From: Candidatus Roizmanbacteria bacterium RIFCSPLOWO2_01_FULL_37_12
GTDB taxonomy: Bacteria; Patescibacteriota; Microgenomatia; UBA1406; GWC2-37-13
Direction of reading: 5' to 3'
Assembly: GCA_001789645.1 (NCBI GenBank)
Contig: MGAG01000002.1
Span: 1 to 38,574, forward strand
DNA length: 38,574 bases
Position numbers and translations under genes: made by a program. Below are positions 25,978 to 36,082 of the stretch, one piece after another; the first letter of the stretch is position 1; each line of letters begins with the position of its first letter. Under the pieces are notes generated by a model. That model was not told where the DNA came from, searched no databases, and saw nothing but the letters and a program-made list of their open reading frames with translations.

Positions 25978-27063
25978 TCATAAATTTAATTTTTCTTTCG
26001 CCACCTTTAGGTTTTGATTATAATATAATCCTTTTTCGTATTCTTGTCTTGCTAAATCTGAATTACTTTGTTTAAGAAGAATATCGCCACGGATTATATA
26101 AAGTTCTGAAAAAGCCAGGTTTCCTTTATTCAGAACCCTGTCCGTTATCTGAAAAACACGATCATAATTACCTAGTTCATAATAAGCCAGAATCGGTTCG
26201 ATCTGGTACCAGAGCGTACGAAAGGGAAGTTGGTTTTCCACTTTTTCAAATTCTTCAACTGATCTTTGATAATCTCCGACTTCATAAAGTGCAACCGACA
26301 GATTAAATCTTGTATAAATGTCATCTTCATTTTCAGCCAGCTTGCCCTGAGCTTGTTGAAGGGCTTTTTGCCAGGCGATTTTTACATCTAAATCTTCTCC
26401 CAAAATTGCTTCGGCTATTTCCTGTTTGTCTCCAGGTATTAAAACCAGATATTCATAGTTAAATCTTTTCCAAAGCTGCGAAAAATTCTCGTAAGAAAAC
26501 CAGAGATTTTTATTCTGTAAGGAGTCATCCTGGATAATTTGTTTTGTTTCGTCATTGTAACCTTTTACTATTCTATAATGGCCTATATCTTCATCAATCT
26601 TAGTTAAAGTACGAGTTACAACTGGAAAATCATAAGTGATAAATTTTTTAATCAGTTCAATATTTCCGTTTGGCCTATGATAGGGGATAAGGCCAAAGTC
26701 TTTGGCTTTTTCCCCGAGCTCCTCCAGAGTGACTGATTTATCATCATTGTCGCCTTGCGGATTTTGATATGGTCTCAGTTCATCACCTAGTAATTGCTGG
26801 CTGACACTTATTCCATAATACGAAAGCGCCATGGACAAGGCAGCCGGACCGCAGTTATTGAATGTTTGAAAGACGTGATAACCGTTTTCCAGAATTTTAG
26901 ACTGTGGCGGATTGACTAATTCAACAGGAGGAGTTGGAGGAACAGATGCGCTGATATCAAGCGGAGTAACCTGAGGCGTGATCGATTTATCAACTGGGCG
27001 GAAGTTTACCGCAACAAACAATATTACTCCCGTGATAAAGACTGGTAAAATATATTTAAGCAT
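25978..27063 (-). CDS. C39-like peptidase with TPR repeats
   Basis: The 361-residue protein has an N-terminal anchor and Pro-rich linker (1-55), then a papain-like C39 domain with C71 (NNCGPAALSMALSYYG), H162 (GHYRIVKGYN) and D179 or D180. It is followed by at least three TPR-like helical pairs (TRFNLSVALYEVGDYQRSVE; ELYIIRGDILLKQSNSDLAR). The domain probably cleaves a peptide outside the membrane. The stretch KALQQAQGKLAE is encoded by a dispersed palindrome. It is divergent from an L,D-transpeptidase across 29 nt. Confidence 0.85.
   Translation of the reverse strand: MLKYILPVFITGVILFVAVNFRPVDKSITPQVTPLDISASVPPTPPVELVNPPQSKILENGYHVFQTFNNCGPAALSMALSYYGISVSQQLLGDELRPYQNPQGDNDDKSVTLEELGEKAKDFGLIPYHRPNGNIELIKKFITYDFPVVTRTLTKIDEDIGHYRIVKGYNDETKQIIQDDSLQNKNLWFSYENFSQLWKRFNYEYLVLIPGDKQEIAEAILGEDLDVKIAWQKALQQAQGKLAENEDDIYTRFNLSVALYEVGDYQRSVEEFEKVENQLPFRTLWYQIEPILAYYELGNYDRVFQITDRVLNKGNLAFSELYIIRGDILLKQSNSDLARQEYEKGLYYNQNLKVAKEKLNL
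26344..26364. repeat. Dispersed palindromic repeat inside the C39/TPR gene
   Basis: CCCTGAGCTTGTTGAAGGG is a form of the common CCCTTCGACAAGCTCAGGG repeat. It is read in frame as residues about 234-240 (QQAQGKL), between the peptidase and the TPR region. Confidence 0.6.
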
Positions 27064-34098: not shown

Positions 34099-35004
34099 AT
34101 GAATTATTTTAAAGTATTTTTTTATGTTTGGAAAAATAGTTTTAGCCGAGCCTCTTATTATAAAGACGTGCTTAAAGCTCCTATTAGCTTTAGTTTAAAG
34201 TATTTTATTTTCTTCAATTTTCTCCTGTCATTCATAGTCGCTTTATTTTTGAGTTTCAAAATATTAATCCCGATGAATGATTTTATTAAGCGCTTCCCAA
34301 AAATCATTAATAAAGTATATCCGGAGGGGTTGGAAGTTCGAATTAGGAATGGCGTTGTTTCTACCAATACGCCTGAGCCGTATTTTATCTCCGTTGACCG
34401 ATTAGATAGAGGTTTTGAGGAGTTGGAGGAAGAGGTCAAAGGGATCAAATCTGACGAGATCAAAAATATTTTAGTAATTGACACTAATGCGACACTTGAC
34501 GATCTGAAAAGGTATCAAACTTATGTACTTCTGACCAAAAATTATCTTACTTATTACAAAGATGACGGAAGAATAGAGTCGGTTTCACTAAATGAAATTA
34601 AAAATTTTACTGTTAATCAAAATGTTGTCCGCAGGCAATTAAATAAATTTATTCCTTGGTTGAATCTTGTTCCGGTTTTCTTACTGCCATTTTTATTCGT
34701 AGGTAGCCTGATGTTCTTTATCGTGGGTCAGCTTTTGTATCTTTTAATTATCGCTTTAGTTCTATTTATAGGAGCCAAAATCAGTTCATTTCCTTTAAGT
34801 TTTTTCAAAGCTTATCAGATAGACCTTCATCTTGCTACAATTATTATGCCATTTTTCCTATTATTAAGCGCCCTCAAAATTCAATTACAATTCCCTTTCT
34901 TAAAATTAATTTTATTTACAGTAATTGGCTTATATATTCTTAACAGTCTAAAAAATACTTCTCCAAATGCGTTAAATGCTAAAAAACCGAGTAAGCGGAG
35001 TTAA
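34099..35004 (+). CDS. DUF1189 family membrane protein
   Basis: ATG 34099 is preferred because the upstream TTG (34096) lacks promoter spacing. The 301-residue protein follows the DUF1189 plan: an N-terminal TM (LKYFIFFNFLLSFIVALFLS), an extracytoplasmic domain with YPEGLEVRIRNGVVSTNTPE, and three to four C-terminal TMs. The role is unknown in all members. The 3' end overlaps fmt by 26 nt in convergent orientation. Confidence 0.88.
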   Translation: MNYFKVFFYVWKNSFSRASYYKDVLKAPISFSLKYFIFFNFLLSFIVALFLSFKILIPMNDFIKRFPKIINKVYPEGLEVRIRNGVVSTNTPEPYFISVDRLDRGFEELEEEVKGIKSDEIKNILVIDTNATLDDLKRYQTYVLLTKNYLTYYKDDGRIESVSLNEIKNFTVNQNVVRRQLNKFIPWLNLVPVFLLPFLFVGSLMFFIVGQLLYLLIIALVLFIGAKISSFPLSFFKAYQIDLHLATIIMPFFLLLSALKIQLQFPFLKLILFTVIGLYILNSLKNTSPNALNAKKPSKRS

Positions 35005-36082
35005 AAGTCCTGAAGTCCACTTCTTTTTTCCCTTCTAACTGAATTCTCAAGATCTTAAGTCTGCCTTCGACAAGTGTCATGTTAGTAATTTTTAATCTCT
35101 TTTGTCTTTGAAAGGCGTGATTACCGCGGATTTTTAGCGGATATTCACGGATATTTATTAAAGTCCAGATACCAGGCCAGGGATATAAGCCGCGAAAATA
35201 ATCGTAAATGATTTTCGCGGAATTTTTAAATTCTAATTTCCCCACTCCGTGCTTTGCACTACGAGGGGCAAGCCAATTTCTAACCAAATTATATTTATGA
35301 ATATACTTAAAAATAAATTTAGGAAGTTCTGGAAAGATTATCGGCTCATTATTTAGTGCTTTTTTGAGAGTTGAAAGTGGAACAAATCCGTCATCTTTTT
35401 TTAGTTGATAGGTAAATGTAGCCTTAGAATGATTTTGCGGGTGTTCCTTGATGTACCATCTTGACAACGGTCGTTGCATAGATGGTATTATTATTTTTTT
35501 GAATACTTCTAAAGCTAAATCCGTTAACTTTATTTCTAGATCGGGTTTTTTATCATTTGGCCTGATCGTTAATTTTTCTTGAGCGATTATTGGACCATGA
35601 TCGACTTTTTCATCAAGTTTGATCAAACTTACTCCGGTTTCCTGATCGCTTAAGATAAGCGGCATCGCAATAGGAAGTGCTCCACGGTATTTTGGAAGCA
35701 GGGAGGGATGAGTGTTCCAGAAACCCAGTTTCGGGAGGTTTAGTAATTCTTTAGGAATAATTCCACCATAGGCGAAGAGAAAAGCCATATCGACGTATTT
35801 TAAAATAGTTGTCAGTTTTCGGTAATCAGTATTCGGTTCATTGAAGTTATTTTTGCCGACTACTGACAACTGATTACTGATAACCGATATACCATATTTC
35901 TCTGCAACTACTTTGACCGGGGATTTAGTCAATATTTGTTTTCTCCCAATAGGTTGATCAGGCTGGGTGACTACCAATTTCACTTCAATTAATTGATTAA
36001 TTGTAGTATCGGTGAGCATTCTCTCAAGGAACCGGGCAGAGAAGTAGGGAGTGCCAAAGTAAGCGATTCTGAGCTTTTTCAT
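34979..36082 (-). CDS. fmt: Methionyl-tRNA formyltransferase with in-frame repeats
   Basis: The 367-residue protein is about 50 longer than usual for Fmt. The catalytic domain contains GTPYFSARFL, TQPDQPIGRKQ, N123 and H125 in FWNTHPSLLPKYRGALPI, and D160 (KVDHGPI). It transfers formyl from 10-formyl-THF to Met-tRNAi. Three palindromic repeats are read in frame: residues about 66-92, 269-280 and 307-320. TATAAT (36094-36089, minus) ends 6 nt before ATG 36082, so it is leaderless. Whether insertions reduce activity is unknown. Confidence 0.9.
   Translation of the reverse strand: MKKLRIAYFGTPYFSARFLERMLTDTTINQLIEVKLVVTQPDQPIGRKQILTKSPVKVVAEKYGISVISNQLSVVGKNNFNEPNTDYRKLTTILKYVDMAFLFAYGGIIPKELLNLPKLGFWNTHPSLLPKYRGALPIAMPLILSDQETGVSLIKLDEKVDHGPIIAQEKLTIRPNDKKPDLEIKLTDLALEVFKKIIIPSMQRPLSRWYIKEHPQNHSKATFTYQLKKDDGFVPLSTLKKALNNEPIIFPELPKFIFKYIHKYNLVRNWLAPRSAKHGVGKLEFKNSAKIIYDYFRGLYPWPGIWTLINIREYPLKIRGNHAFQRQKRLKITNMTLVEGRLKILRIQLEGKKEVDFRTFNSAYSVF
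35121..35160. repeat. In-frame repeat of the CCGCGGATTT-type inside fmt
   Basis: A motif with CCGCGGATTT followed by AGCGGATATTCACGGATATT is a recognisable dispersed repeat seen in many bacterial genomes. It adds about residues 307-320 (NIREYPLKIRGNHA) to the C-terminal domain. Confidence 0.55.
35241..35275. repeat. G/C-rich in-frame hairpin inside fmt
   Basis: On the coding strand CCCC...GTGC-AAA-GCAC...GGGG forms an imperfect hairpin in an A/T-rich gene. It encodes about residues 269-280 (LAPRSAKHGVGK). Confidence 0.5.
35807..35887. repeat. Palindromic CAGTAATCAGT-type element inside fmt
   Basis: Arms AGTTGTCAGTTTTCGGTAA / (complement of) CAGTTGTCAGTAGTCGG and nearby CAGTAATCAG copies form an imperfect hairpin. 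Read in frame as residues about 66-92 (ISNQLSVVGKNNFNEPNTDY), it replaces the normal linker. The ISNQLSVIS-type translation is the known mark of this dispersed repeat. Confidence 0.65.

Follow-up and report, generated by a model that had tools for sequence, protein, structure and literature searches.

In-frame palindromic elements within genes are documented mainly from Rickettsiales. The Rickettsia palindromic elements RPE-1 to RPE-7 are palindromic, dispersed repeats that lie within pre-existing housekeeping ORFs at solvent-exposed sites and leave the frame unbroken, and RPE-bearing orthologs may hold different families near the same site (PMC3767692, PMC2229807). Their length is 100–150 bp (PMC3767692). 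Another class of short palindromes, the REP elements, is described as extragenic, high-copy, 20–40 bp in size and associated with RAYT transposases (PMC3733652, PMC2817692, PMC3116915).

The fmt gene for methionyl-tRNA formyltransferase, located in the 38,574-nucleotide stretch analysed here (the window), contains five short repeat elements, E0 to E4 (Table 1). The original prediction had named three in-frame repeats, an ISNQLSVV-type palindrome (E1, here found to be of a heptad type), a G/C hairpin (E2) and E3; these are real and all keep the frame, but E0 and E4 had been missed. The prediction had also likened them to Rickettsia palindromic elements. This likeness holds for palindromic repeats that lie in frame at exposed sites: E0, E2 and E4 are palindromic, dispersed and have in-frame copies in ORFs, and a structural model places E1–E3 in low-confidence, probably surface loops and E4 at the domain linker. 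However, the fmt palindromes are far shorter (26 bp for E0, 30 bp for E2, 34 bp for E4 and ~84 bp for E1, all below the RPE range), the host belongs to Roizmanbacteria (Microgenomates), a different phylum from Rickettsiales, and the sequences are apparently unrelated. Since size, sequence and host all differ, the elements represent a variant of the RPE principle rather than RPE members. They also differ in that several unrelated families share one gene and most of the copies found are genic.

The likeness to the REP/RAYT system lies in palindromes of similar size and in the several Y1 transposase genes of RAYT-like size in these genomes, some of which have one palindrome on both flanks; E0, E2 and E4, by contrast, occur in few copies, for the most part within genes, and not close beside a transposase gene. 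The small dispersed repeats (SDR) of cyanobacteria are very short, apparently mobile repeats of 20–30 nt, found chiefly between genes or nested within other repeats; the fmt repeats are similarly short and apparently mobile, but most of their copies are genic. No report of such repeats in CPR bacteria was found in the literature searched, although absence there is no proof.

We consider it very probable that unrelated short dispersed repeats (E1–E4) have invaded this fmt on several occasions, leaving the frame unbroken and adding loops to the translated protein where the surface of a still-working enzyme permits them, and that the gene exemplifies a process that runs through the genome and the whole family of Roizmanbacteria. 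In such a process, low-copy repeats of ~30–100 bp, mostly palindromic, would land in many places including coding DNA, and selection would leave coding copies only where they are in frame, free of stops and in loops. Several unrelated families, far shorter than the RPEs, lie within genes for core functions of translation and metabolism in a CPR lineage with a reduced genome. Orthologs with empty, filled and differently filled loops make it testable how mobile DNA adds protein segments and which enzyme sites accept them, and for gene annotation the repeats explain odd insert peptides in CPR proteins.

Table 1. fmt and the repeat and hairpin features within it, in window coordinates
Feature	Description	Position	Strand	Basis
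fmt	methionyl-tRNA formyltransferase, 367 aa, frame intact	34979..36082	(-)	Pfam N+C domains, AlphaFold, Foldseek
E0	26-bp palindrome ACTACAATTAATCAATTAATTGAAGT, aa 26-34 TTINQLIEV	35982..36007	(-)	same-codon palindrome in relatives
E1	TCAGTNN heptad-type inverted repeat, ~aa 65-92 (ISNQLSVVGKNNFNEPNTDYRKL); arms 35812-35837/35862-35887	35807..35890	(-)	motif counts, in-frame relatives elsewhere
E4	34-bp palindrome TACCATCTATGCAACGACCGTTGTCAAGATGGTA, aa 199-210 (IPSMQRPLSRWY), N/C-domain linker	35454..35487	(-)	genome-wide copies
E2	30-bp G/C-rich palindrome (35240-35269) + 3 nt = exact 33-nt insertion, aa 271-281 LAPRSAKHGVG	35240..35272	(-)	empty sites, dispersed copies
Hairpin	palindromic stretch encoding conserved SAKIIYDYFRG	35188..35221	(-)	homologous sequence
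E3	CCGCGGATTTTTAGCGGATATTCACGGAT-type (CGGAT-type) repeat (35119-35155), insert ~aa 312-326 (REYPLKIRGNHAFQR)	35105..35158	(-)	ortholog gaps, partial repeat matches

Inserted elements in fmt

At the E2 site, fmt exceeds its empty relatives by exactly 33 nt. The flanks AGAAATTGG and AAATTAGAA adjoin without a break in L015, where they encode NWKLELGNSAK, and the site is similarly empty in L024 and L203, while the same point in the fmt of L014 holds an unrelated repeat that encodes LREVEG. Two E2 copies were found in this genome, in fmt and tyrS, and eight others are spread over three further genomes of the genus and two from less close relatives, against none in the reversed control in either case. 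These counts come from a search pattern with a variable-length (gapped) loop, as the fixed-length pattern gives no further copy. MITEs combine terminal inverted repeats with a target-site duplication; comparison of filled and empty versions of the E2 site, the remaining sites being too diverged, displays no clear duplication.

The 34-bp palindrome E4 has five copies in this genome and is present in all six genus genomes (control 0), with tgt among the genes that hold it. In the sister species G005, a palindrome of the E4 family lies in fmt at the E2 site and not at the linker, and in the sister G001 an E2-type repeat occupies a different fmt site. Since sister species thus hold one repeat family at different points of fmt, there is good evidence of movement, and we infer that the repeats are mobile. 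In a sister species, a single dipeptidase gene (449 aa, G003:C15) contains E4 together with E0, both of them in frame (L263:1501-1534 and L238:1501-1526, respectively), and is thus a further example of several elements in one gene.

E3 is not palindromic, and its single other copy in this genome, with up to 3 mismatches over 29 nt, is intergenic (control 0), accompanied by further shorter, partial matches. It is missing from L014, L016, L021 and L024, which have a short turn instead (IKGIEKRLK in L014), and the site is differently filled by an E2-type palindrome in L015 and by another insert in L025. The original prediction would have been refuted by homologous, diverged non-repeat sequence in relatives at these positions; it was not, as close relatives show either empty sites at E2 and E3 or, at those points, repeats of an unrelated kind.

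The E1 arms are built of heptads, and the three-heptad motif occurs six times in 400 kb of this genome, two of these being the arms themselves, but is absent from 10 shuffles and from 1.1 Mb of relatives. Motifs of this type are read in frame in three other ORFs, one of them glycosyltransferase-like (RQLITDNRRLTT), one coding for a membrane protein (LLITEYSLLTT) and one further ORF (KLITDYRL). The boundary of E1 is unclear because the length at this site differs in all relatives. The elements are dispersed, as the original prediction had held.

The strong hairpin between E2 and E3 was considered as a further inserted element and rejected, as it codes for a conserved peptide and is homologous sequence. 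The conserved Fmt segment KII[YF][DN]YFRG forms a near-perfect DNA hairpin in several species (L014, L015, L017, L018 and L224).

E0, a palindrome probably kept in place

E0 behaves differently and is probably something other than an insertion, namely a DNA motif maintained in place. The palindrome is found in the Fmt of 12 relatives from two genera at identical codons, and Fmts with E0 are 2 aa longer than those without it. Relatives of E0 exist elsewhere in this genome, and single genomes of the genus have as many as 15 (reversed control 0). In a dipeptidase, trmD and a methyltransferase, its codons align to orthologs without gaps, so that there is usually no net insertion. Altogether 69 E0 sites were collected; the 52 in ORFs are all read in one codon phase, and in the first E0 family both remaining phases contain stops. 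In 47 of 50 pairs of related host genes, E0 occupies one shared codon position, and the pairs that depart from this are distant paralogs.

Same-codon sites with genome-specific versions were found in G002, G003, G005, G060 and G066 (loci L238-L252 and L339-L371), which span two genera. G005 has ACTTCGATTAAACGTTTAATCGAAGT as its version in trmD, gatB, a methyltransferase and fmt, the corresponding four genes of G002 have ATTTCGATTAAACACTTAATCGAAAT or a near variant, and the fmt of G064 carries ACTTCGATGTATCGATACATCGAAGT, a perfect palindrome with a different centre. The recurrence of one version at several loci, together with the recentred perfect palindrome, indicates that both arms change jointly and that versions track the genome. 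Tentatively, E0 could be a 26-bp palindromic DNA motif that sits in fixed codons of conserved genes (fmt, pheS, trmD, gatB, dipeptidase and others) in at least two genera, with a version per genome that changes jointly at unrelated loci, and that is kept either by a co-evolving DNA-binding protein or by homing or conversion among dispersed copies, which would amount to concerted evolution. If confirmed, this would mean that very short palindromes are able to evolve in concert within coding sequence, and would point to an unknown DNA-binding or conversion system.

A wider form of this idea takes the palindromes as functional DNA sites in their own right, bound by a chromosome-organising or other protein, that are tolerated in genes. 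The fixed codon and phase, the joint change of the arms, the versions common to several genes and the usual lack of net insertion make it applicable mainly to E0. parS-type chromosome sites amount to about ten palindromic sites per genome, some of them genic, with position kept in relatives, and by analogy E0 may be compared to them in number, palindromy and kept position, although it differs from parS in sequence, length and the existence of genome-specific versions. As an account of the elements in general we regard it as doubtful, though possible: E2, E3 and E4 are true insertions at sites that differ between species, none of the elements has a known binding protein, and in the genome of the window the E0 copies vary among themselves and are in part degenerate.

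The host enzyme

The ORF is a genuine methionyl-tRNA formyltransferase of a Roizmanbacteria-like genome, to which Candidatus Roizmanbacteria are the closest named relatives. Its product has both Pfam domains of the family (Formyl_trans_N, 7.5e-30; Formyl_trans_C, 2.9e-07), while the score against TIGR00460 is under the cut-off. The catalytic residues N123, H125 and D161 are invariant across the alignment and hence intact, as the original prediction had stated. An AlphaFold model computed with a 37-sequence alignment as input has a mean pLDDT of 91.9, and its best Foldseek matches are the solved Fmt enzymes 4iqf and 2fmt. Model confidence dips at residues 71-80, 271-290 and 311-320, which are the loops of E1, E2 and E3, and E4 is placed at a helix end ahead of the C-terminal domain, in agreement with the predicted position of the repeats at loops or linkers. 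In contrast to E1–E4, E0 forms a well-ordered short helix in the model. The insert peptides probably remain in the protein as nearly neutral segments that the enzyme tolerates.

Could fmt instead be under relaxed selection or decaying, so that anything in frame persists as formylation becomes dispensable in the lineage? No Fmt match was obtained in 9 of 72 family genomes, and in the whole genomes G014 and G020 neither fmt nor def was found, which suggests that N-formylation has been lost in parts of the family. This reading is nevertheless very unlikely for the present gene, given the invariant catalytic residues and confident fold, the lack of stops in any full-length Fmt of the family, the presence of def (peptide deformylase) in the same genome and the same kinds of insert in leuS, tyrS, lepA and other core genes. 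The contig of fmt has, ~39 kb away from it, a second, formyltransferase-like ORF (G000:C2:74892-75368), which is 36% identical to Fmt and has an open frame of 259 aa.

Spread across the family and genome

Clear inserts are present in 24 of 62 Fmt sequences of the family at about five recurring sites, and the relatives hold other repeats within the same loops, with peptide types that include SRLRGND, SGAKQS, RQAQG, LVQDD, GIPTARS and PLVGNR. Insert DNA has at least two repeat matches elsewhere in family DNA in 18 of 40 cases, compared with 15 of 120 core segments (Fisher p = 4e-5) and 1 of 40 shuffled inserts. Ordinary variation in loop length, with diverged homologous loops that resemble repeats by chance, would fit the E1 site, where length varies in all relatives, and core Fmt segments also yield some loose matches (22% at the loose threshold). 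It is, however, already contradicted for E2 and E4 and highly improbable overall, as E2 is an exact insertion with empty relatives, the palindrome families E0, E2 and E4 occur at unrelated loci with no reversed-control match, and the E1 motifs do not arise in shuffles.

Repeated insertion of dispersed elements is also consistent with their distribution over whole genomes. Low copy numbers, with two copies each of E2 and E3 found in this genome, nevertheless count against it. E0, E2 and E4 have 1–15 copies per genome, mostly genic, and across the genus their hosts comprise pyrC, radC, a rarA-like gene, gatB, argS, trmD, tgt, lepA, pepN, purA and a dipeptidase. The count in coding versus non-coding DNA that the original prediction had proposed gave 57 copies of E0, E2 and E4, of which 41 lie in ORFs no shorter than 150 aa, all of them read through, 15 lie between ORFs, and one is in a 144-aa ORF truncated by the contig edge; none of the 57 was seen to break a gene. 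The proportion of genic copies is statistically indistinguishable from the coding fraction (p = 0.26), and coding DNA is thus not avoided. It is hardly credible that skipping or removal of the repeats from the RNA, in a bypass- or intron-like manner, keeps them out of the protein, since every genic copy is in frame and stop-free, which removal would not need, even though the palindromes could form mRNA hairpins. Equally, an assembly or binning artefact is barely conceivable, for although the named genomes compared are metagenome-derived drafts, the same families appear in independently assembled genomes, one a single contig (G030), and identical sites recur in independent assemblies in the case of E0 and of E4 in both tgt and pepN.

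A de novo comparison that sampled ~30% of this genome found insert segments that orthologs lack in leuS, tyrS, tgt, clpB, nadE and trxB, and of 34 such inserts 11 have repeat matches in no fewer than two other places, compared with 21 of 400 control segments (p = 5e-6). Several elements in one essential-type gene had been considered notable; this is not exceptional here, because leuS has six insert segments relative to the one ortholog compared. Searches by nhmmer with single short seeds were insensitive for such repeats, and a permissive per-gene repeat ranking was dominated by low-complexity and paralog matches and therefore left out of the ranking of fmt. Several lineage-specific inserts with KSDKSD / SDFRPLTSDF and GIPAARSRELSNPKR repeats were noted in leuS (L139:8203-11076) and tgt (L139:18546-19925) of this genome. 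Furthermore, the ORF at 25978-27063 of the window contains KALQQAQGKLAENEDD in frame, which resembles the RQAQG-type repeat.

As for mobility, exact E0 or E4 was absent from viral contigs, where carriage by phage was looked for. Seven matches to Y1 transposases of RAYT-like size are present in this genome and were considered as the mobiliser of the repeats, but their flanks have other palindromes and, apart from one weak E4-like match, are without E0, E2 or E4; neither a clear target-site duplication at the E2 site nor a mobilising enzyme was identified, and this too counts against repeated insertion. Some Y1 (RAYT-like) genes carry a G/C-centred palindrome on both sides (L308:877-1770, L317:1230-2030 and L320:1160-2080), an arrangement that fits a REP/RAYT or IS200-like unit in the genome of a CPR bacterium.
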